Positions 454-12,386 of a DNA stretch of 12,386 nt are shown one piece after another. The DNA lies in NCBI GenBank assembly GCA_903958285.1, contig CAJBSR010000163.1, positions 1 through 12,386 of the forward strand, written 5' to 3'. A model generated the notes under the pieces. It saw only the letters and a program-made list of their open reading frames with translations. It made no database searches and had not been told where the DNA came from. The translations under genes were made by a program, and so were the position numbers. The stretch comes from an uncultured Sphingomonadales bacterium. Lineage in GTDB: Bacteria > Pseudomonadota > Alphaproteobacteria > Sphingomonadales > Sphingomonadaceae. The first letter of the stretch is position 1. Every line of letters begins with the position of its first letter.

Positions 454-486
454 AAAAAGAGAGGCCGGCAAGTTTCCTTGCCGGCC
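454..486 (-). terminator. Rho-independent terminator of glnK-amtB
   Basis: Read on the minus strand, GGCCGGCAAG (486-477) pairs perfectly with CTTGCCGGCC (472-463) around a GAAA loop, followed by TCTCTTTTT (462-454). A ten-base-pair stem, a tetraloop and a U-rich tail make this a textbook terminator. It lies about 90 bases after the amtB stop codon and is the third of three hairpins in that 3' region. Confidence 0.92.
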
Positions 487-560
487 CAGTAAGGTTCGCA
501 GGAGGAACCTGGGGAGGGGGTCCTTCCCTTTTCAGGAGAGGAGCGGGACGGACCCCCAAG
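454..560 (-). ncRNA. Candidate small RNA or structured 3' UTR of amtB with anti-SD loops
   Basis: Three hairpins in a row on the minus strand directly after amtB. Hairpin 1: GGGGGTCC (557-550) pairs with GGACCCCC (523-516); just inside, TCCC and GGGA can extend the stem, leaving a loop that carries CTCCTCTCC. Hairpin 2: AGGTTC (510-505) pairs with GAACCT (497-492) around the loop CTCCTGC. Hairpin 3 is the terminator. Pyrimidine-rich loops complementary to Shine-Dalgarno sequences followed by a terminator resemble the alphaproteobacterial alpha-r14 ('cuckoo') small RNAs, which are about this long. The 5' end is a guess and I could not identify a dedicated promoter. It may be processed from the amtB transcript, be an independent RNA, or be only a structured 3' UTR. 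Confidence 0.42.
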
Positions 561-577
561 CTTGGTAACGGGTGGCC

Positions 578-1984
578 TTAGTAGTTGTAGGCACGTTCCC
601 CGTGGCTCGACAGATCGAGACCTTCGCGTTCGGCGTCTTCCGACGGGCGGAGACCGATGGTCTTGTCGAGGATGAAGAAGAGGACAGCAGAGCCAATCCC
701 CGACCAGAGCAGCGTCAGGATGACGGCCTTGGCCTGAGTGATCACCTGTCCGGCCATGTCATAGGTGCCAGCGACAGCCGGGAAGACGGTGTAGTCGATC
801 CAGCCCTGACCGCCCAAAGCCGGGTCAGCCACAATGCCTGTCGCGAGAGCACCGACGATGCCGCCGACGCAGTGCACGCCGAACACGTCGAGCGTGTCGT
901 CATACTTCAGCTTGTTCTTCACAACCGCGACGAAGAGGTAGCAGACCGGCGAGACGACGAGGCCGATGAGGATCGACGTCATCGGGGCTGCAAAGCCCGA
1001 AGCCGGGGTGATGGCGACAAGACCCGCAACCGCACCCGTCACAGCGCCGAGGAGCGACGGACGACCGTGGTGGATCTGTTCAACCAAGGCCCAGGCGACA
1101 GCAGCAGCTGCTGTTGCGACGAAGGTGTTGATGAAGGCCAGTGCCGCAAGGCCGTTGGCTTCAAGGTTGGAACCGGCGTTGAAGCCGAACCAGCCCACCC
1201 ACAGAAGCGAGGCGCCGATCATCGTCATGGTGAGCGAGTGCGGCGGTGTGGCTTCTTTGCCGTAACCGATGCGCTTGCCGATCATGATGCAGCCAACAAG
1301 GCCAGCGATGCCAGCGTTGATGTGAACCACGGTGCCACCGGCAAAGTCCAGTGCGCCCATGCCCCACAGATAGCCCATGTCAGCAGGTGCATCGACCAGG
1401 AAGTCTGGGCCAGCCCAATACCAAACCATGTGCGCAATCGGGAAGTAGACGACCGTCAACCAAGCGACGACGAACAGCATCAGCGGCGCAAACTTCACGC
1501 GCTCCGCAAAGGCACCGACGATCAGCGCCGGGGTGATGCAGGCAAAGGTCATCTGGAACACAACAAATGCGTATTCCGGAATATAGACATTGTTCGAGAA
1601 GGTCGCCGCAACCGTGGTCGCATCAACGCCCTGCAGGAACAATTTGGACAGGCTGCCGATGAAGGGCGTGCCGCTCGTGAACGCGAGCGTGTATCCCCAG
1701 CTAACCCAGACGAGGGCCGCGATCGACACGATCATGAAGACCTGCATGAGGAGGCTCAGCATGTTCTTCGTGCGGACAAGGCCGCCGTAGAAAAGCGCGA
1801 GCGCCGGGATCGACATGAGCAGCACGAGCGCCGACGAAACGAGCATCCATGTGGTGTCGCCCTTGTCGACCATGCCGGCCATTTGTTCAGCAGTCGGTGC
1901 CTTGATCGGCCCGTCCTGCGCAAAGGCAGGGGCAGTTGCGAGCATCGTCGCGGCCCCTGCAATCCATTTGTTAAGTCTGGTCAT
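578..1984 (-). CDS. amtB: Ammonium transporter AmtB
   Basis: 468-residue inner-membrane ammonium channel of the Amt/Mep/Rh family, taking up NH4+/NH3 when ammonium is scarce. Residues 1-22 form a cleavable signal peptide ending APAFA, as in other proteobacterial AmtBs, followed by about eleven membrane helices. The twin pore histidines are at 221 (GGTVVHINAG) and 371 (FGVHCVGG). The conserved Asp of the DFAGG motif is 213, and the Trp of HMVW in the periplasmic recruitment region is 188. The cytoplasmic tail from about 445 keeps the canonical EREGLDLSSHGERAY segment to which PII docks. The start ATG has AGGGGA a few bases upstream. It lies 17 bases after glnK, so the two are co-transcribed and GlnK gates the channel. 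It shares the sigma-54/NtrC-type control region upstream of glnK. Confidence 0.97.
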   Translation of the reverse strand: MTRLNKWIAGAATMLATAPAFAQDGPIKAPTAEQMAGMVDKGDTTWMLVSSALVLLMSIPALALFYGGLVRTKNMLSLLMQVFMIVSIAALVWVSWGYTLAFTSGTPFIGSLSKLFLQGVDATTVAATFSNNVYIPEYAFVVFQMTFACITPALIVGAFAERVKFAPLMLFVVAWLTVVYFPIAHMVWYWAGPDFLVDAPADMGYLWGMGALDFAGGTVVHINAGIAGLVGCIMIGKRIGYGKEATPPHSLTMTMIGASLLWVGWFGFNAGSNLEANGLAALAFINTFVATAAAAVAWALVEQIHHGRPSLLGAVTGAVAGLVAITPASGFAAPMTSILIGLVVSPVCYLFVAVVKNKLKYDDTLDVFGVHCVGGIVGALATGIVADPALGGQGWIDYTVFPAVAGTYDMAGQVITQAKAVILTLLWSGIGSAVLFFILDKTIGLRPSEDAEREGLDLSSHGERAYNY

Positions 1985-2372: not shown

Positions 2373-2388
2373 CGCAATTGCCGTGCCA
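2373..2388 (-). promoter_or_regulatory. Sigma-54 (RpoN) promoter of glnK-amtB
   Basis: On the minus strand TGGCACGGCAATTGCG matches the -24/-12 consensus TGGCACG-N4-TTGCW at every fixed position except the last weak base. The GG and GC doublets have the required ten-base spacing. Transcription would start near 2362, about 21 bases before the glnK ATG, leaving room for its AAGGGG ribosome site. glnK-amtB operons are classic RpoN/NtrC targets, so context and sequence agree. Confidence 0.88.
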
Positions 2389-2805: not shown

Positions 2806-4200
2806 CTAAGCCGTCCGCAAATACCAAGCGTAATCAAGATCAGGCACCGCGCCAAAGAAGCGTTCCATCTCGGTCTGCTTCACGATGCCAAACATCTCGA
2901 CAAAGCGCGCGCCGAGCAGATCCTTCATCACCTCTGATCCGCTGAACCGGTCGAGTGCGGCAAACCAGTTGGTCGGCATGGGAGGCGCTGTCGTCACCGC
3001 TTCATAGCCATTGCCGACAACAGGCGCGCCGGGGTCCAGCTTGTGCTCGATCCCGTGGCACATGCCCGCCAGCATCGCGGCCATCGCAAGATAGGGGTTG
3101 GCATCTGCCCCGCCGATCCGGTGTTCGACATGGCGGCTGGCCGGTGGCCCTGCCGTCACGCGGAAGCTGACGGTGCGGTTGTTGACGCCCCATGTCGGCG
3201 CGACGGGGGCATAGCTGTTCGCCTTGAAACGCCGGTAGCTGTTGGCGTTGGGCGCAAAGATCAGGAAGGCGTCGCCGATGGTGGCCTGCATCCCGGCAAT
3301 GGCGTGGCGCAGCAGCGGCGTGCCTTGCGGGTCTTCGCTGGCAAAGGCGTTTTTGCCCGACGCGTCGAGCATCGAGGCGTGCAGGTGCATGCCATTGCCC
3401 GCGCTATGTTCAAACGGCTTGGCCATGAAGGTCGCTTCCATGCCGTGCTTCTGCGCGATGGCCTTCACCATGCGCTTGTGCATGATGGCATCATCACAGG
3501 CCTGAAGGGCGTTGGCCTTGTGCGCGAGCGTCATTTCAAACTGGCCGGGCGCATATTCGGATATGGCGGCTTCCAGTGGAAGATTCTGCGCGGCAGCACA
3601 GGCATAAAGATCATCGAAGAAGGGCCGGAAGTCCTCCATCTCGGCCAGACCATAGACCTGAATGTCGTGCGGCGTTTCCCCTGAAGAGGGTGAGCGGGCA
3701 GGCGTCGGGCGACCATCTTTGCCGCGCTTGGCATCGACCAGATAGAATTCCAGTTCCACCGCAACGTCGGGCGTCAGGCCATGCCCTGCCAGCCGGTCGA
3801 TCACGCGGCCCAGCACATGGCGAGGGTCAAGATCATTGGGTGTGCCGTCCAGCTCATAAAAGCCGGTCAGGAACTGCGCGGCATTTGGCCCGGCCCAAGG
3901 GGTCGGCACCAGCGTGCCGGGGATCGGATGGATGCGCCGGTCGGCATCGCCATCTTCCCAGACGAGGCCTGTTTCCTCGGTGTCGCGCCCGGTAATATCA
4001 ACGATGACGGCAGAGCCGGGCAGGAAGCGGCCTTCTTTGTAGACACCCAGCACTTCATGCGCGCGCAGCCGCTTGCCGCGCGGCACGCCGCACATGTTGG
4101 TGAAGATGATGTCGATGGCGTCAACCTCCGGATGGGCCTTGAAAAAGGCTTCTGCTTCGGAAAGTTGCGCGATCTGATGCGAGGACGTCTTGCTGGTCAT
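2806..4200 (-). CDS. Glutamine-synthetase-family gamma-glutamyl ligase, PuuA-like paralogue 1
   Basis: 464 residues. The family joins the gamma-carboxyl of glutamate to ammonia or an amine using ATP. The N-terminal beta-grasp part has TNMCGVPRGKRL (35-45). The catalytic domain shows the metal-binding ELEFY (Glu149, Glu151), SEYAPGQFE (Glu215, Glu222), GNGMHLH (His272), NNRTVSFR (Arg342) and EHRIGGADANPYLA (Glu359, Arg361). It lacks the GlnA adenylylation-loop tyrosine motif and ends in DYAWYLRTA, so it belongs with gamma-glutamylpolyamine-synthetase-like enzymes and not biosynthetic GlnA. I chose ATG 4200, preceded by AAGG; a GTG start 45 bases upstream (4245) is possible but has no ribosome site. 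It stands alone, diverging from the CYTH-CHAD gene with 124 bases between them. The amine substrate cannot be read from sequence. Confidence 0.9.
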   Translation of the reverse strand: MTSKTSSHQIAQLSEAEAFFKAHPEVDAIDIIFTNMCGVPRGKRLRAHEVLGVYKEGRFLPGSAVIVDITGRDTEETGLVWEDGDADRRIHPIPGTLVPTPWAGPNAAQFLTGFYELDGTPNDLDPRHVLGRVIDRLAGHGLTPDVAVELEFYLVDAKRGKDGRPTPARSPSSGETPHDIQVYGLAEMEDFRPFFDDLYACAAAQNLPLEAAISEYAPGQFEMTLAHKANALQACDDAIMHKRMVKAIAQKHGMEATFMAKPFEHSAGNGMHLHASMLDASGKNAFASEDPQGTPLLRHAIAGMQATIGDAFLIFAPNANSYRRFKANSYAPVAPTWGVNNRTVSFRVTAGPPASRHVEHRIGGADANPYLAMAAMLAGMCHGIEHKLDPGAPVVGNGYEAVTTAPPMPTNWFAALDRFSGSEVMKDLLGARFVEMFGIVKQTEMERFFGAVPDLDYAWYLRTA

Positions 4201-4324
4201 AAAGGCCTTGTGCGGGGAGTGCAGGGCCTCCGTCAAGCCGGACACGCAGCGCCGCTGGATGAAGAGTCGCGTCCTGTGCCGTCGGGTGTTACCCTCCCCA
4301 CCTTAAACAGATGGGCGCCGGGCT
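4201..4324. promoter_or_regulatory. Divergent promoter region, ligase / CYTH-CHAD
   Basis: These 124 bases must hold promoters for both the minus-strand ligase and the plus-strand CYTH-CHAD gene. I found no convincing sigma-70 pair. The only GG-N10-GC sigma-54 spacing (CGGCTTGACGGAGGC, minus strand) is a poor match. The single ribosome site I can see is AAGG before the ligase ATG. Confidence 0.4.
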
Positions 4325-5845
4325 ATGACAGACGGGCATGAGATCGAACTGAAGCTGGCCGCATCCGCCGCCATGCTTGCGCACCTGCGGTCGATGGACA
4401 TGCTGCAAGGCGAGGGTCGGACTCGGCATTTCTCGACCGTCTATTATGATACGCCTGACCAGAGGCTCGCCGCCGCACACCTCGCTTTGCGTGTTCGGAA
4501 TGACGGCAAAAGCTGCGAGATAACCGTGAAGCGCGGGGCGACTGGCAAGGCCATTTCCCGCGCGGAATGGAACGCCCCGCTAGAGGGTCCGCAGCTTGAT
4601 CTCGGAGCGCTGCCGCCCCAAGCCGCGCGCCTTGTGATCAAGGCCGCCAAGGGCGCCGATCTAAAGCCTGCCTTCAGCCTCGTCGTGGACCGGGACGTCC
4701 GGGCGGTCGCCTTTGGCCGTTCCAAAATCGAACTGGCCTTTGATGAGGGGCATGTGACCGCCGGAGGCCGGACGGCCCCTATGTGTGAATTGGAGCTGGA
4801 GCTGCTGTCGGGCAGTTTGAAGGACCTGCTTGGGCTTGTGCGTGCGCTGTCGTTGGGGCCTGAGCTCTATTGGTCGACCACCAGCAAGTCGGCCGCCGGC
4901 TATCGCTTGGTTGACGGGGCACCGCCCGTTGCGGTCAAGGCGCGTCCCATCCGCCTGCCCGCCAATATCGGCACACGGGCTGCGCTGCGTCGGATTGTGT
5001 GGGGCAGCATTGGACAGTTTCTGGCCAATGTTGATGCGCTGGTGATTTTCAGCCTGCCTGAAGGCCTGCATCAGATGCGGGTTGCCTTGCGGCGCTTGCG
5101 TGTCGCGCTGCGCCTTGCCCATGACATGCTGGAGGATGCCGATGCCCCGGTGCTGGATGCGGAATGGGGTGCCGCCATTGGGGTGATGGGCACCGCGCGG
5201 GATCTTGATGTCATCCTCGCACGGATCGGAAAAGGGCCCGACACCGAAACAGGCGCCGATGTGCGCCGCGCCCTCGCGGAAGAACGGGCGCAGGCCTATG
5301 CGTCGATGGTGGGTCTGATCCAGAGCGCGTCTTTTCAAAATCTGTTGGCCGGAACGGTGCATTGGGCCGAACATCTTGGTGGGCCACAGCCGGATGATCT
5401 GCCGCTCCGTCAGGCCACGCGTGCGCTCTTGAAAAGCTGGCGGCGCAAGCTCCGCCGGAAATCGGGGCACCTTGCCGATATCTCACCCGAAGCGCGGCAC
5501 CGTATCCGCATCGGGCTGAAGCGGCTGCGCTATGCCACGGAGTTCTTCACCAGCCTGTTGCGTGATCCCGAGCGCAAGACGTTGGACCGGTTGCGGCTCG
5601 ACCGTTTGGCGGATGCGCAGGAGCATCTGGGGGACCTGAACGACCTCGACGTTGGTGCCTCGCTTGGGGCGCGGCTCAAGGGCGATCCGCTCCACCGTGC
5701 AGCGATCCTCGAAGCGCTGGAAGCAGCGGCGCGGGACCAGCACCGTCATGTGCCAAAGCTTTTGGAGAAAGCGCAGGAGGCGGTCGACTTTGCCCTTGCC
5801 AAGCGGAAGAAGATCAGCGTGCGCGCGTCAGGAAAGCAGCGCTGA
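4325..5845 (+). CDS. CYTH-CHAD domain protein (inorganic triphosphatase type)
   Basis: 506 residues, two domains. Residues 1-200 are a CYTH triphosphate-tunnel domain: the signature EIELK (Glu6, Glu8, Lys10), the YYDTPD strand (40-45), LRVR (55-58), TVKR (67-70), CELELEL (154-160) and KSAAGY (188-193). Residues about 215-495 are a CHAD helical domain with two histidine/arginine-rich helices, HQMRVALRRLR (249-259) and HRIRIGLKRLRY (392-403), plus LADAQEHLGDLNDLD. CYTH proteins of the YgiF type hydrolyse inorganic tripolyphosphate; CHAD domains bind polyphosphate. The EIELK motif fixes the start, although no good ribosome site precedes ATG 4325. The gene runs head-on into the aminotransferase: their 3' ends overlap by 18 bases. 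In E. coli the equivalent ygiF lies next to glnE, another nitrogen-control gene. Confidence 0.95.
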   Translation: MTDGHEIELKLAASAAMLAHLRSMDMLQGEGRTRHFSTVYYDTPDQRLAAAHLALRVRNDGKSCEITVKRGATGKAISRAEWNAPLEGPQLDLGALPPQAARLVIKAAKGADLKPAFSLVVDRDVRAVAFGRSKIELAFDEGHVTAGGRTAPMCELELELLSGSLKDLLGLVRALSLGPELYWSTTSKSAAGYRLVDGAPPVAVKARPIRLPANIGTRAALRRIVWGSIGQFLANVDALVIFSLPEGLHQMRVALRRLRVALRLAHDMLEDADAPVLDAEWGAAIGVMGTARDLDVILARIGKGPDTETGADVRRALAEERAQAYASMVGLIQSASFQNLLAGTVHWAEHLGGPQPDDLPLRQATRALLKSWRRKLRRKSGHLADISPEARHRIRIGLKRLRYATEFFTSLLRDPERKTLDRLRLDRLADAQEHLGDLNDLDVGASLGARLKGDPLHRAAILEALEAAARDQHRHVPKLLEKAQEAVDFALAKRKKISVRASGKQR

Positions 5846-7174
5846 AACCGCGTCGTCCAGATGGTCCGCCAATCGGCCGACCTGCTCCACCGTCGTTACG
5901 GGGCTGACCAGCATCATATTGTGGAACGGCGCCAGCAAGGTGCCGCGGTTGACGAGCATCAGGTGGATCAGGCTTTCCAGATCATGGTCCATCGCCGCGC
6001 GGGCTTCTGTGCCATTGGTGGGCGGCTTGGCCGCGCAGACGATCTCCACCCGCGCGCCGACGCTTGACACATGCCAGGGCAGATTATGCCGATCAATCAC
6101 GCCTTCGATGCGCCCGGCGAGCATCTGCCCAAGGCCGAGCATATGGCTATAGGCGTGCGGCGACATCACATCGTCGAGCATGGCGTGCATCGCTGAGATC
6201 GCCAGCGCATTGGCAGACAGCGTCGTGCCGATCCCCGAATGGCCGGGCGTCAGGGTGGCGCGATAGGCCTCCATCCGGGTGGCGACCTCATGCGAAAAGC
6301 CGAAGGCCGCGCACGGCACGCCGCCGCCGATCGACTTGCCGATGACGAACATGTCGCCCGCCGGACCATAGCTGCCCGAATGGCCACCGGGGCCGGAGGA
6401 GATAGTGTGCGTTTCATCCCAGATGAGGAGCGTGCCCGTCCGCGCCGTCGCTTCCCGCATCAGGGCAAGGAAGCCGGGGCGCGGCAGCACCATGCCGCAA
6501 TTGGTCATCACCGGCTCGGCAAGGACCGCGGCGATGTCGCCGGCCTCTAATGCTGCCTCAAGCGCACGGCCGTCATTGAACTCGATGGCAATGGTGTGGT
6601 CACGCACGTCCCACACCTGACCGACAAGGCTGCGCCGTGTTTCGGGCACGCCATCGCGCAGATCGACAAACACATCATCGACCGCGCCGTGATAGCAGCC
6701 ATTGAAGATGAGGATCTTGTCCCGCCCCGTGATGCCCCGCGCCCAGCGGATGGCGGCGCGGTTGGCTTCAGAGGCAGTGGTCGTCAGCTGCCAATGCGGG
6801 TGGTGAAAGCGGGTGGCGAGCATCAGGCCGACATCGGCCGCCTTCTGGCTCGGGAGCATGTAGCTCAGCCCCTCCTGCGCCTGCTGGGCGAGGGCGAGAG
6901 CGAGTGGCTCGGGCGAATGGCCGAACATCGATGCGGTATCGCCCAGACAGAAATCGTCGAGCACCTGCCCGTCCAGCGTGGTCAGCGTCGACCCCTGCGC
7001 GGTCTTGGCGGTCAGCGGAAACGGCGAGGGCCAATCGCGCATCCAATGGAAAGGCACGCCCTGATGCCAGCCGCGCTTGCGGTCCAGCGCAGCGTCCGCC
7101 GATTTGGGGTTGGCAGCAATGAAGCGCGCCTCTTCTTCGGCACGGCAGGTGGCAATGCGGTTGCGGTCGATCAT
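5828..7174 (-). CDS. Class-III aminotransferase of the glutamate-1-semialdehyde aminomutase type
   Basis: 448 residues, a PLP enzyme of fold type I. Landmarks: ASEANRAAIRWAR (134-146), which binds the cofactor phosphate; GCYHG (159-163) stacking on the ring; LAEPVMTNCG (218-227); WDETHT with Asp253, which holds the pyridine nitrogen; and IGKSIGGG with the Schiff-base Lys280. The sequence looks more like the GSA-aminomutase-like amino-acid transaminases than like the GABA transaminase PuuE. It is not expected to be HemL, which has a different neighbourhood and no amine-oxidase partners. It is the last gene of the minus-strand cluster, 45 bases after the FAD oxidoreductase, with GGGAA before the ATG. 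It could transaminate the amino acid or amino aldehyde made by the upstream steps; the true substrate is unknown. Its stop codon lies inside the 3' end of the CYTH-CHAD gene. Confidence 0.9.
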   Translation of the reverse strand: MIDRNRIATCRAEEEARFIAANPKSADAALDRKRGWHQGVPFHWMRDWPSPFPLTAKTAQGSTLTTLDGQVLDDFCLGDTASMFGHSPEPLALALAQQAQEGLSYMLPSQKAADVGLMLATRFHHPHWQLTTTASEANRAAIRWARGITGRDKILIFNGCYHGAVDDVFVDLRDGVPETRRSLVGQVWDVRDHTIAIEFNDGRALEAALEAGDIAAVLAEPVMTNCGMVLPRPGFLALMREATARTGTLLIWDETHTISSGPGGHSGSYGPAGDMFVIGKSIGGGVPCAAFGFSHEVATRMEAYRATLTPGHSGIGTTLSANALAISAMHAMLDDVMSPHAYSHMLGLGQMLAGRIEGVIDRHNLPWHVSSVGARVEIVCAAKPPTNGTEARAAMDHDLESLIHLMLVNRGTLLAPFHNMMLVSPVTTVEQVGRLADHLDDAVSALLS

Positions 7175-7219
7175 GATCGTTCTTTCCCGTTCCCCTCGTT
7201 CACGACCGGCAGCCGGAAA

Positions 7220-8473
7220 TCATAAACGGTCCTTGAGCGCGTACCAGAGAAGTCCAAGCGTCGCCAAGGGACGGCGCATCCATTTTCCACCGGGAAAAGG
7301 CCGTTTTGGCAAAGACGCCATGACGTCAAAACGTGATGCCGTCCCCGCCAGCGCTTCGGCGACAAGCTCCCCCGCCAGCGTCGTGACCAGCGCGCCATGG
7401 CCGGAAAATCCGAAGGCATGAAACACATTGCCGCGCCGCCCTAGGATCGGCAGCCGGTTCATGCTCACCGAAACAGCGCCGCCCCATTGATAGTCGATAG
7501 GGGTGTCCGCCAATTGGGGGAACACCTCAACAATGTGGCGCCGCACGAACGCGGCGATATCGGCCGGTGGCGTCTGCACATATTTTTCACCGCCGCCGAA
7601 CAGCAGGCGCTTATCGGCAGACAGGCGAAAATAATTGAGGACGAACCGGCTATCCGCGACGGCGGCGTTGCTGGGCAGAAGGTCATCGGCGTTCGGGATC
7701 GGCGCGGTTGCGACATTGTAGTTCATGATCGGGATGGTGAAGCGGGCGAGACCAGGGTCGATCTCCTCCATCCAGGCATCGGTGGCGAGAATGGCATGCG
7801 CCGCGCGGACGCTGCCCTGCGCGGTTCGCACGGTCACTGTGCCTTGATCGATCACCTCTGCGACGCGGCTCTTTTCAAAGATTTGGACGCCCGCATCCTC
7901 TGCGGCGCCTGCCAACCCGAGAACATAGTTGAGCGGATGAAAATGGCCGCCTTGTGGGTCATAGAGCCCGCCATGATAGCCGGCAGCGCGGATTTGTTCG
8001 GCCAAGCCTGCGCGGTCGAGGATCGTCGTCTTGTAGCCGAAGCGGGTGTCCAGCAATTCTGCCTCAGCCGCCATATCGTCCAGATGCGCGGGCTTATAGG
8101 CCGCCTCTAAGTGACCGGACGTGAGATCACAGTCGATCTTGTGGCGGGCGACCCGACCCCACACAAGGTCGCGGGCGCCCCACGCAACGTCGAAAATCGC
8201 CTGGGCGCGCTCCGCACCAAATTCGGCTTCCATCTCGCGCATCGACCAGCGTAGGCCGGGGATCAGCTGCCCGCCATTGCGCCCTGATGCGCCAAAGCCG
8301 ATGGTTTCGGCTTCCAACAGGATGACCGAAAATCCCTTTTCCGCACAGGCAAGGGCAGCGGCCACGCCGGTGAACCCGCCGCCGATGACGACGACGTCAC
8401 AGGCCGTCTCGCCTCTTAAGGGTTGCGGCTGGCGCTGCCGGTTGGCGGTAGCCGCATAGTAATTGTCGAACAC
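7220..8473 (-). CDS. puuB: FAD-dependent amine/amino-acid oxidoreductase, PuuB-like
   Basis: 417 residues of the DAO (D-amino-acid-oxidase-like) superfamily. The Rossmann FAD site is VVVIGGGFTGVAAA (27-40), with the adenosine-binding acid in LLEAE (52-56). The family signature GFGASGRNGGQL (59-70) follows, as in gamma-glutamylputrescine oxidase PuuB. Near the C-terminus PILGRRGNVFHAFGFSGHG closes over the flavin. The start is GTG at 8473, preceded by AGAGGGCG; no nearby in-frame ATG would keep the FAD site. PuuB oxidises the free amine end of a gamma-glutamylated diamine to an aldehyde with O2. Being directly between a PuuA-like ligase and an aminotransferase supports that role, but glycine, sarcosine or other amine substrates are possible, so the symbol is tentative. 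Confidence 0.88.
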   Translation of the reverse strand: MFDNYYAATANRQRQPQPLRGETACDVVVIGGGFTGVAAALACAEKGFSVILLEAETIGFGASGRNGGQLIPGLRWSMREMEAEFGAERAQAIFDVAWGARDLVWGRVARHKIDCDLTSGHLEAAYKPAHLDDMAAEAELLDTRFGYKTTILDRAGLAEQIRAAGYHGGLYDPQGGHFHPLNYVLGLAGAAEDAGVQIFEKSRVAEVIDQGTVTVRTAQGSVRAAHAILATDAWMEEIDPGLARFTIPIMNYNVATAPIPNADDLLPSNAAVADSRFVLNYFRLSADKRLLFGGGEKYVQTPPADIAAFVRRHIVEVFPQLADTPIDYQWGGAVSVSMNRLPILGRRGNVFHAFGFSGHGALVTTLAGELVAEALAGTASRFDVMASLPKRPFPGGKWMRRPLATLGLLWYALKDRL

Positions 8474-8484
8474 CGCCCTCTATC

Positions 8485-8551
8485 CCGTTCGTGTCGAGCG
8501 ACGTCGAGACACTTGGCACCAACGTCCCTCGACTTCGCTCGGGACAAACGG
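8485..8551. repeat. Imperfect inverted repeat, REP-like intergenic element
   Basis: Left arm 8485-8512 and right arm 8524-8551, 28 bases each, match as inverted copies at 22 of 28 positions around an 11-base spacer. Each contains a TCGAGCGA(C/A)GTCGAG core. From memory, words of the CTCGACTTCGCTCG type are common dispersed elements between genes of sphingomonads. It fills most of the 97-base gap between the second ligase and the FAD oxidoreductase, both on the minus strand. It could reduce or stabilise transcript passing between them. Confidence 0.65.
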
Positions 8552-8570
8552 ATTTGGAATTCGGCCCATA

Positions 8571-9920
8571 TCAGACGCGGAGCAACAAATGCTCACGCTC
8601 CCATGAACTGATCACCGACTGGTAGTTGAACAGTTCACATTCTTTGATGGCATAGAAAATCTCAAAAAAATCTTCGCCCAGAAGCTGCTTGACCGGCTTG
8701 CAGTGCGAGAAGCGGTCGAGCGCACCTTCCAGTGTTCGGGGCAATGTCCGTGCGCGGTTATAGGCACTGCCTGCGATCGGCTTGGGCGGCACCATCCGGT
8801 CCACCATACCGATGTATCCGCAGATCAAAGAGGCGGCCATGGCGAGATAGGGATTGCTGTCTGCCCCCGGCAGGCGGTTTTCGATACGCCGGTTCTTCGG
8901 GTCCGAAATCGGGATGCGCAATCCGCACGATCGGTTGTCGGTGCCCCATTGGACGTTGATCGGGGCATCACTGTCGGGCCGCATTCGGCGGAAGCTGTTG
9001 ACGTTGGGCGCAAACATGGGCGTCACCTGCGGTAACAGCCGGGCAAGCCCGGCAATATAGCTGCGGAACAGCGCGCTGTCCTTGCCGGCCTGCGTGCTGA
9101 AGATATTGCGGCCCGTATCGATATCGAGGACCGACTGGTGGATGTGCATCGCGCTGCCGGGCTGATCGCTCATCGGCTTGGCAAGGAAGGTCGCGTAAAC
9201 GCCGTGCTGTAGCGCGACCTGACGGACGAGGCGTTTGAACAGCAACACTTCATCGGCCAGCTTCAGTGGATCACCGTGAAGGAAGTTCACTTCCAACTGC
9301 GCGGCGCCTGATTCATGGATCATCGTGTCGATGTTGATCCCGGCCTTCTCGCACCACTCATAAGTGTGTTCGATAAACTCTTCGAACTCGGTCAGGGCCT
9401 CCAGCCCATATGGCTGGCTCGCCGTTTCCGGGCGACCTGACCGGCCGGTCGGCGGCACCAAGGGGAAGTCCGGATCTGTGTTCTGCGAGACGAGATAGAA
9501 CTCAACTTCCGGCGCGATGACGGGCCGCCAGCCGCGGTCTTCATAGAGTTTGAGCACGCGCTTCAGGATCATGCGCGGGGCAATGGCCACCGGCGCGCCG
9601 TCTTTGGTGAAGGCATCGGCAATGACATAGGCCGTCGGCGTCGCAAAGCCGGGGGCCTCACGGATCGTCTCGGGATCGGGCACCATCATCTGGTCGGGAT
9701 CATATTCCGGGATGATGTGCCCGATGCCCTCGGGATATTCGCCGTTGATCGTGACGGAGAAAATGCTGCCGGGAATGCGCAGCGTGTTTTCCTTCACGCT
9801 GGACAGGAACTTGTTGGCGGGCAGCACCTTTCCGCGCTGCACGCCATTCATGTCCGGGACGATGCACTCCACTTCGCTGACACCATGCTCTGTAATCCAG
9901 GTCGCAAGGTTCGTCGCCAT
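8571..9920 (-). CDS. puuA: Glutamine-synthetase-family gamma-glutamyl ligase, PuuA-like paralogue 2
   Basis: 449 residues. Same fold as the ligase at 2806-4200 but clearly diverged from it. The N-terminus has IVPDMNGVQRGKVLP (20-34). The active-site set is complete: PEVEFY (Glu138, Glu140), HESG (Glu203), AQLEVN (Glu210), SAMHIH (His259), TDNRS (Arg330) and ENRLPGADSNPYLA (Glu347, Arg349). The tail WEREHLLLRV lacks GlnA's adenylylation motif. Gamma-glutamylputrescine synthetase (PuuA/SpuI type) is the best guess, because the next gene is a PuuB-like oxidase. It lies 48 bases after the porin gene and is probably in the same transcript. ATG 9920 has no ribosome site at normal distance; GGGAGG lies 26 bases upstream, beyond a small hairpin (see separate entry). 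Confidence 0.9.
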   Translation of the reverse strand: MATNLATWITEHGVSEVECIVPDMNGVQRGKVLPANKFLSSVKENTLRIPGSIFSVTINGEYPEGIGHIIPEYDPDQMMVPDPETIREAPGFATPTAYVIADAFTKDGAPVAIAPRMILKRVLKLYEDRGWRPVIAPEVEFYLVSQNTDPDFPLVPPTGRSGRPETASQPYGLEALTEFEEFIEHTYEWCEKAGINIDTMIHESGAAQLEVNFLHGDPLKLADEVLLFKRLVRQVALQHGVYATFLAKPMSDQPGSAMHIHQSVLDIDTGRNIFSTQAGKDSALFRSYIAGLARLLPQVTPMFAPNVNSFRRMRPDSDAPINVQWGTDNRSCGLRIPISDPKNRRIENRLPGADSNPYLAMAASLICGYIGMVDRMVPPKPIAGSAYNRARTLPRTLEGALDRFSHCKPVKQLLGEDFFEIFYAIKECELFNYQSVISSWEREHLLLRV

Positions 9921-10747: not shown

Positions 10748-10882
10748 TGCCTGCGCAATTCCTGATGAGTGTTGCAGATATGTCGATGTCCGCCATCGCT
10801 CAAGCCATGCGACTATCGCTTGCCCGCCAGGCCTTCCCGCGACATCATAGGGCGAGAAAAGAAAATAGCCCGGAGAGCCTTT

Positions 10883-12386
10883 ATGCCCGTCACCCATCGC
10901 CGCACATGCCATATCTGCGAGGCCAATTGCGGTGTCATCGTGATGGCAGAGGGGCGTGATATTCTCTCCATCAAGGGCGATCCTGACAATGCGATGAGCC
11001 GGGGGCATATCTGCCCCAAGGCCACGGCAATTGCCGATCTCCAGAACGATCCCGACCGCCTCCGCCGCCCGATGAAGCGCGTGGGCGAGGACTGGCAGGA
11101 GATCAGCTGGGATCAGGCCTTTGCCGAGATTGGTGAAAAAACCCGCGCGATCATGGCGCGCGATCCGGCGTCGACCGCGCTTTATGTCGGCAACCCCAAT
11201 GCCCACAGCTATGGCAATGTGCTGACATCCGGCGACCTTAAAAAGGCGCTGCGGACCAAGAACGTCTTTTCGGCGAGCACGGTGGACCAGATGCCGCACC
11301 ATGTCGCCAATATCCGGCTCTATGGCCATTCAGGTTTTTGGGCGGTGCCTGACATTGACCGTACGCAGACGATGATCATTCTGGGCGGCAACCCCATGGC
11401 CTCCAATGGCAGCGTCTGGACCGTGCCTGATTTCCGCAACCGGGTGAAGGACTTGCAGGCGCGCGGCGGGGAGCTGATCGTCATCGACCCGCGCCGCAGC
11501 GAGACCGCGAAGATCGCCGACCGGCATATCTTCGTGCGCCCCGGCAGCGATGCCTTCCTGCTGATTGCCCTGTTGAAGACGATGAAGGCAAAGGGCTTGC
11601 CGGAAGCGGCGACTTACGTCCGCAATGTCGATGCGCTTTGGGTGGCACTGGAGCCCTTCGACGTGGCTGACTGCCTTGCGCGCGCGAATGTGTCCGCCGA
11701 AGACGTCAACCATCTGGCGGAACGCATGCTGTCCGGCCCTGCTGCACTTTACGGACGCATGGGCGCTTCGACGCAGAGCTTTGGCACGCTCACCACCTGG
11801 CTGGTGGCGGTGGCCAATATCGTCTCCGGTCAACTCGACCGCGAAGGCGGGCTGCTCTGTGGCGCGCCGGTGGTGGACCTGTTGCACCTGTTCGGCCCCG
11901 GCAGCATTGGCAAGCACCACTCCCGCGTCTCCGGCCATCGTGAGGTTCTAGGTGAATTTCCGTCGTCGGCCATGGCCGAGGAAATGGAAACGCCGGGTGA
12001 GGGCCAGATCAAGGCGCTGTTTGTCGTTGCGGGCAACCCTGTGCTCTCCACCCCCAATGGCACGCGGCTGGATAAGGCACTGGCGGGTCTCGACCTGATG
12101 GTCTCGGTCGACATGTATCTCAACGCCACGAGTCGGCGGGCGCACTACATCCTGCCGCCGGCGGGGCCGCTGGAGAAGGATCATTACGGCCTGTTCCTGC
12201 TGCCCATCGCGATCCGCAGCTTCGCCAAATATTCGCCGCCCTTGTTTGAAAAGGATGCGGAGACCCTTGCCGATTGGGAAATTCTGCGCGGACTGGCCGG
12301 GGCGATTTCAGGCCATAAGGCAGACGGCCCAACCCCGCGTGAGATGCTCGACCAGATGATGCGCACAGGCCCCTTTGGCGTCTCGC
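10883..12386 (+). CDS. Molybdopterin-dependent oxidoreductase, large subunit (3' end outside window)
   Basis: The first 501 residues of a DMSO-reductase-superfamily enzyme with a bis-MGD molybdenum cofactor and one iron-sulfur cluster. Cys9-x2-Cys12-x3-Cys16-x27-Cys44 ligates a [4Fe-4S], followed by Lys46 as the electron-path lysine. The molybdopterin domain has LGGNP, VIDPRRSETAKIAD and VRPGSDAFLL. Against formate dehydrogenase FdhF, the selenocysteine position (VUHGP) falls on Asp135 (VDQMP), so the metal ligand is probably aspartate and not Cys or Sec. There is no twin-arginine signal, so it acts in the cytoplasm. GGAGAG lies six bases before the ATG. The substrate is unknown; nitrate reduction or formate oxidation should not be assumed. 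It diverges from the porin gene across 206 bases. Confidence 0.93.
   Translation, partial: MPVTHRRTCHICEANCGVIVMAEGRDILSIKGDPDNAMSRGHICPKATAIADLQNDPDRLRRPMKRVGEDWQEISWDQAFAEIGEKTRAIMARDPASTALYVGNPNAHSYGNVLTSGDLKKALRTKNVFSASTVDQMPHHVANIRLYGHSGFWAVPDIDRTQTMIILGGNPMASNGSVWTVPDFRNRVKDLQARGGELIVIDPRRSETAKIADRHIFVRPGSDAFLLIALLKTMKAKGLPEAATYVRNVDALWVALEPFDVADCLARANVSAEDVNHLAERMLSGPAALYGRMGASTQSFGTLTTWLVAVANIVSGQLDREGGLLCGAPVVDLLHLFGPGSIGKHHSRVSGHREVLGEFPSSAMAEEMETPGEGQIKALFVVAGNPVLSTPNGTRLDKALAGLDLMVSVDMYLNATSRRAHYILPPAGPLEKDHYGLFLLPIAIRSFAKYSPPLFEKDAETLADWEILRGLAGAISGHKADGPTPREMLDQMMRTGPFGVS

Follow-up and report, generated by a model that had tools for sequence, protein, structure and literature searches.

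Why should the gene of an ammonium transporter carry an anti-Shine-Dalgarno (anti-SD) string of its own, and would such a string work in trans or in cis? The question is posed by the 3' end of amtB in the window, by which we mean the whole 12,386-nt stretch of DNA analyzed here. The amtB gene (578-1984, minus strand) encodes a 468-aa ammonium transporter (PF00909, 370.8 bits; TIGR00836, 424.5 bits), and because its stop codon lies at 578-580, the segment that follows is the immediate amtB 3' UTR. On the minus strand, this UTR folds into three hairpins, all of them where the initial annotation had placed them. H1 (516-557) is a stable 5' hairpin in which GGGGGUCC (557-550) pairs with GGACCCCC (523-516), with CUCCUCUCC at 535-543 in its loop. 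H2, the anti-SD hairpin (492-510), has a stem of 510-505 with 497-492, a loop CUCCUGC (504-498), and the conserved 15-mer GUUCCUCCUGCGAAC at 508-494. H3 (454-487) is an intrinsic terminator, as had been proposed: its stem (487-462) comprises 11 pairs and a 4-base loop and is followed by CUCUUUUU, with the tail running down to 454. The whole element spans 565-454 of the minus strand, and the H3 terminator is common to the element and the amtB mRNA.

Folding of 454-570 (minus strand) with RNAfold gives -56 kcal/mol, compared with -39.2 +/- 3.7 kcal/mol for 200 shuffled sequences, none of which equals it (z = -4.49). In the predicted ensemble, the UCCU of the H2 loop is at least 0.96 unpaired, C504 and G499, at about 0.2 unpaired, mostly form a closing C-G pair that leaves C498 bulged, and the CUCCUCUCC bases of H1 range from 0.58 to 1.0 unpaired. 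On the far side, a terminator-like hairpin near 236-272 faces the amtB terminator; within 1-275, a plus-strand open frame ends at 210 and encodes 69 residues without a Pfam match.

Upstream of amtB on the minus strand stands a glnK-type P-II gene (2002-2340; PF00543), the first gene of the presumed operon, whose product matches the PRK10665 and PRK10858 models under their cut-offs. Ahead of glnK lies TGGCACGGCAATTGC (2374-2388, minus strand), a -24/-12 promoter of the sigma-54 consensus type. The proposal that the hairpins end a sigma-54-type operon is supported, as TGGCA[C/T]-N5-TTGC occurs no more than 250 nt from glnK at each of the 19 loci, the window among them, where glnK and the element occur together. 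A simple consensus scan of 400-1000, which may miss alphaproteobacterial variants, gave no sigma-70-like promoter. A TGGCA[C/T]...TTGA site is also present at 12 of the 13 non-sphingomonad amt loci examined, and the element at none of the 13; since these loci have the site without the element, nitrogen control is likely the older of the two. At L035, a locus with a variant hairpin described below, no TGGCA[C/T]-type site was found. Beside glnK-amtB in the window, 2806-9920 encodes two glutamine-synthetase-like proteins, a class-III aminotransferase, and a DAO-type oxidase, with the gene of a CYTH-CHAD protein on the other strand between these nitrogen-related genes, and 10769-12385 encodes a molybdopterin oxidoreductase that resembles formate dehydrogenase/nitrate reductase alpha subunits and scores under all curated cut-offs.

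The 15-mer of H2 is widely kept. Written as GUUCCUCCUGCGRAC (GTTCCTCCTGCGRAC), it was scanned for in 149 genomes of the window's own family: exact copies number 100 and are spread over 97 of these genomes and 61 of the 91 genera sampled, compared with 3 copies for the reversed pattern. Ninety-nine of the 100 copies follow an amt gene at a distance of under 400 nt (57 of 58 and 42 of 42 in two batches); the lone other copy (L368) is inside a 260-aa open frame of a genome, G064, whose other copy is at amt. A multi-copy trans gene was rejected on this distribution. The amt proteins linked to the 15-mer are about 31 to 100% identical with the window's AmtB, and because identities fall to about 31%, the element outlives most amt protein similarity. 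Two genomes with two amt genes each, G011 and G014 (in the latter 2 kb apart), carry one element per gene.

A search for amtB relatives, of which we took the best 80 of at least 591 loci, gives the same picture. The 3' end of amt is present in 21 of these 80 (L002-L020, L035, and L036; 18 labelled sphingomonads and 3 labelled Alphaproteobacteria only), and UUCCUCCUGCG follows amt in 19 of the 21, the remaining two being L011, where one base differs, and L035, with its variant hairpin; L032 ends within amtB. Among the same best 80 of at least 591, the motif is found in none of the 58 other loci from rhizobia, methylobacteria, burkholderias, and others. R1, a covariance model based on 47 H2+H3 sequences, matches 89 of 196 genomes of the order at E <= 1e-9, all 89 from the window's own family, and 3 of 240 genomes drawn from the class, again all from that family, with E-values that are rough owing to a short calibration. 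At E <= 0.001, R1 matches 294 of 298 genomes, a figure inflated by ordinary terminators that does not measure prevalence. When six genomes were rescored, 8 matches reached at least 57 bits, all at amt, and the rest did not exceed 36.7 bits; in five weak matches that were aligned, the anti-SD loop fits poorly or not at all. The element is confined, so far as sampled, to the window's own family.

Within that family, the exact 15-mer was not found in 52 of the 149 genomes, some of which have amt without any H2. We examined 20 genomes with a weak or no R1 match for amt: six have no amt match, and the other 14 have 18 (two being pieces of one gene), three of them followed by a UUCC-UCCCCAA-GGAA hairpin, one by a hairpin with a loop one base shorter, and the remainder by no H2. 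As amt is present without H2 in some genomes, the element is not universal even alongside amt. The UUCC-UCCCCAA-GGAA hairpin, with a terminator, replaces H2 directly behind amt at L035, L210, L211, and L215, where the anti-SD core UUCCUCC is kept and the remaining loop and the stem are rebuilt.

Sphingomonad relatives also bore out the expectation of compensatory changes in the stems. In the 47-sequence H2+H3 alignment, 28 rows of which were collected by blastn with the window as query and which is to that extent ascertained, 95.1% of cells are paired; its covariation score of 0.379 compares with 0.137 for shuffled alignments, is reached by none of 500 shuffles, and falls to 0.107 or less when the pairing partners are slid. 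Both-sided changes occur in 8 of 10 pairs of H3 among the 47 relatives. The outermost pair of H2 is GC, UA, or CG and is unpaired in 13 of the 47, and the pair next to it changes from G-C to C-G in one species. The least variable bases are not the stems overall but the anti-SD loop and the inner stem of H2, and the sequence of H3 varies while the 15-mer stays exact. L036, whose contig is as long as that of L106 and probably the same one, was excluded from alignment A1 and from the 87 UTRs considered next; L092 (a blastn match away from amt) and L035 (the variant hairpin) also lie outside A1, and L183, a pattern match in a coding ORF, is the one locus of 104 without amt.

H1 behaves differently from H2. 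Taken as present wherever 7 or more pairs are predicted between the stop codon and H2, one perfect hairpin not being required, it is found in 83 of 87 distinct UTRs, retained as a hairpin and not as a sequence. A CU-rich apical loop (CUCC or CCUC) is scored in 39 of the 87, the others having a short plain loop; three further H1 loops, those of the window, L002, and L118, are rich in C and U yet are scored negative because the fold sets a 2-bp mini-helix there. The large H1 loops are long CU runs, such as CUCUCUCUCCUUUC and CUCCUCCUCUCCUCC, in many genera (L084, L099, L101, L102, L140, and others), and elsewhere the loops are tetraloop-sized. Two loci, L104 and L112, have no H1, and their H2 starts 2-5 nt past the stop codon. 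Because H1 is missing there and its CU-rich loop is present in part of the relatives only, the conserved unit is, on comparative grounds, H2 plus the terminator H3, usually with H1 ahead. The initial annotation had given H1 and H2 equal weight and had counted two CU-rich loops. Both hairpins exist, and H2 keeps its stem and CU-rich loop in relatives, as that reading demanded, whereas H1 does so in part only and it is H2+H3 that relatives conserve as a unit.

What might a conserved RNA structure do that sits almost exclusively behind amt, where glnK-amtB has a sigma-54-type promoter upstream? The 3' end of 16S rRNA contains CCUCC, and the H2 loop and its flank, UUCCUCCUGC, copy this string, which makes ribosome-binding sites the obvious candidates for pairing. 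We consider that the element's most likely job, at a probability of about 0.5, is that of a nitrogen-linked, anti-SD small RNA released from the 3' UTR. When nitrogen is short, NtrC and sigma-54 would drive glnK-amtB, and a ribonuclease would cut the 3' end of amtB free, analogous to RNase E freeing the enterobacterial GlnZ from glnA mRNA, to leave an RNA of roughly 55-110 nt. The UUCCUCCUGC face of H2 would then bind other mRNAs at their ribosome-binding sites and lower their translation, in the manner of the alpha-R8 and alpha-r14 anti-SD RNAs. Being made together with the transporter mRNA, such an RNA would follow ammonium demand in its amount. Both halves of the scheme have precedents: NfeR1 and SisA act via anti-SD seeds in the excerpts of PMC10746234 and PMC12559287 on which we draw, and GlnZ arises from the glnA 3' UTR in enterobacteria in those of PMC9731577. 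At L104 and L112, with H2 2-5 nt past the stop codon, a terminating ribosome would cover H2, which counts against this reading, as does the absence of the exact 15-mer from 52 of the 149 family genomes.

The choice of targets is harder to read from the seed. GCAGGAG was found in none of 76 start regions of glnA, glnB, ntrB, and ntrC (19 genomes per gene), the starts being script-chosen and several of them doubtful, those of ntrB above all. Of the four genes, ntrB, a proven target of rhizobial NfeR1, shows the weakest pairing (median -2.6 kcal/mol). NfeR1-like targeting of ntrB, and likewise of ntrC, glnA, and glnB, was set aside for want of a match at the start sites. In six genomes, GCAGGAG-N{4,10}-ATG has 55-135 matches per genome, compared with 11-30 for the reversed pattern; as it precedes ATG this often, the seed alone is not selective and names no targets.

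Feedback in cis comes first among the alternatives, as a less likely but live rival: by pairing with the amtB or glnK ribosome site on the mRNA that carries it, H2 would hold down translation or stability, as the icaR 3' UTR of Staphylococcus aureus reportedly does. The element stays with amt, as this explanation would have it. Ribosome sites of amtB are rich in G, and 56 of 120 distinct ones can form 7 or more contiguous pairs with UUCCUCCUGC (G-U allowed), compared with 20 of 229 genes of one relative, in which the amtB site is among the strongest-pairing 3.9% of the 229. This comparison takes its background from one genome and includes some script-chosen starts that are clearly wrong. However, when the motif is shuffled, 78 of 200 versions of equal composition match the amtB sites as often, so the excess is no proof of cis pairing and follows from G-richness. 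Moreover, AGGGG, the usual core of the glnK (22 of 27) and amtB (42 of 49) sites, needs a G-U pair with CCUCC, and the conserved loop would suit AGGAG better.

Next in order of probability, and likewise a live though less likely rival, is recognition of H2 by an RNA-binding protein or ribonuclease that would set how long the operon mRNA lasts, in which case the anti-SD likeness would be secondary. H2 adjoins the terminator, and its loop and inner stem are conserved past the anti-SD core (UUCCUCCUGCG), as in a protein site; the variant UUCC-UCCCCAA-GGAA of L035, L210, L211, and L215, however, keeps UUCCUCC while the remaining loop and the stem change, which suits base pairing better. That the hairpins are chance folds beside an ordinary terminator and regulate nothing is strongly disfavored and very improbable: H3 is indeed a good terminator and many terminators in these genomes weakly match the H3 half of R1, but termination can do without H2 and without a fixed 15-mer, which 97 of 149 genomes nevertheless keep exactly, and H3 varies where the 15-mer does not.

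We return, then, to the released anti-SD RNA. Its fuller version, a hitherto undescribed RNA family that would serve as a dedicated amt riboregulator, expressed from sigma-54, cut free, and repressing chosen mRNAs, is one to which we would give slightly less than an even chance. Searches of the open literature by title and abstract gave no description of the element among the matches listed, and the exact sequence string had no match there. If this version is true, the amt riboregulator would couple demand for ammonium to such repression and would fill in the window's own family the part played in rhizobia by the stand-alone NfeR1 and MmgR.

The comparison with known families begins with Rfam: across the window, no family scores as high as its gathering cut-off. 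A permissive search of 300-700 at E up to 10 gave 8 weak matches, and alpha-r14, whose covariance model is presumably part of the Rfam library, is absent among the 8 listed. The best of them is the molybdenum riboswitch RF01055, with 23.5 bits for a cut-off of 36 and several non-standard pairs; a molybdenum/tungsten riboswitch was rejected on this score and on its wrong context. The model ar7 scores 17.2 bits (cut-off 60), and RF00519 (suhB/mmgR) scores 18.8 bits in the window, 29 in G107, and 30.6 in G011 (cut-off 41).

The initial annotation had recognized the architecture of the alpha-r14/cuckoo RNAs in this segment, and here we part from it. The amt element and alpha-r14/cuckoo (NfeR1) do share anti-SD strings in hairpin loops before a terminator and a link to nitrogen control. 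As far as the excerpted text of PMC10746234 defines it, however, alpha-r14 has three hairpins, each with an unpaired CCUCCUCCC, and a sigma-70 promoter of its own with a conserved upstream stretch. CCUCCUCCC was not found in the segment, whose loops read CUCCUCUCC in H1 and CUCCUGC in H2 and lack the nonamer in H3, and neither it nor the sigma-70 promoter was found at the amt element. Membership in alpha-r14/cuckoo is excluded because the element departs from this definition, so far as the excerpts give it; the missing Rfam match points the same way. NfeR1 differs further in that it targets ntrB, where no conserved complement to the amt element was found.

In its working parts, alpha-R8 (RF00519; MmgR and SisA-D) is more alike: the order of 5' hairpin, UUCCUCC, and terminator is the same, and the UUCCUCC anti-SD string followed by a terminator, which characterizes alpha-R8, is present at the amt element. 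With the heptamer held fixed, however, 68-179 of 300 shuffles score as high in likeness to alpha-R8. Alpha-R8 RNAs adjoin the gene of an N-formylglutamate amidohydrolase (FGase) in the excerpts of PMC12559287, whereas 99 of 100 copies of the 15-mer lie behind amt; MmgR is induced by NtrC, according to the part of PMC7143759 that we cite. Membership in alpha-R8 was rejected on a score under 41 bits and a place behind amt instead of beside an FGase gene; the likeness past UUCCUCC is not significant. We regard the amt element as like alpha-R8 in its working parts and not as a member of it.

The same genomes hold two further RF00519-related types. One, at L179, L183, L184, and L190, scores 30-34 bits for the cut-off of 41 and reads UUCCUCCCUGAACC-UUGGCC (UUCCUCCCUGAACCUUGGCC) before its terminator; an FGase-like motif lies near three of these four, and the gene at L183 matches Pfam FGase. 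Because this FGase-linked type also scores 30-34 bits, the RF00519 cut-off is strict in these genomes. The other, with AGGCAUCCUCUCC... before its terminator, occurs at L167-L178, L182, L185, and L187, mostly above the Rfam cut-off. This sphingomonad RF00519-type small RNA (GCCUUUCAGGCAUCCUCUCC...) shares with the amt element a CU-rich string between hairpins, a terminator, and the genomes in which it occurs, but its string is CCUCUCC, it lies at other loci, and it mostly scores above the Rfam cut-off.

Outside the Alphaproteobacteria, the icaR 3' UTR of Staphylococcus aureus reportedly carries a pyrimidine-rich, anti-SD string that pairs in cis with the ribosome site of its own mRNA. The two are alike in having a 3'-UTR pyrimidine-rich string that could base-pair at a ribosome site; icaR acts in cis, whereas the cis pairing of the amt element is imperfect and not motif-specific. 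For location, GlnZ is by analogy the nearest precedent. From what the excerpted PMC9731577 reports, GlnZ is a small RNA from the 3' UTR of a nitrogen-assimilation mRNA, as the amt element putatively is; the latter lies in a 3' UTR, uses the terminator of its mRNA, and has a conserved seed. GlnZ differs in its gene and its bacteria and in pairing far upstream of the sucA start, whereas the presumed seed of the amt element is anti-SD. The conserved loop offers a seed that can be altered base by base, and the 15-mer a probe for many genera (61 of 91 sampled). The anti-SD small RNAs of Alphaproteobacteria are reported as stand-alone genes and a 3'-UTR nitrogen small RNA is reported from enterobacteria; the amt element would unite both.
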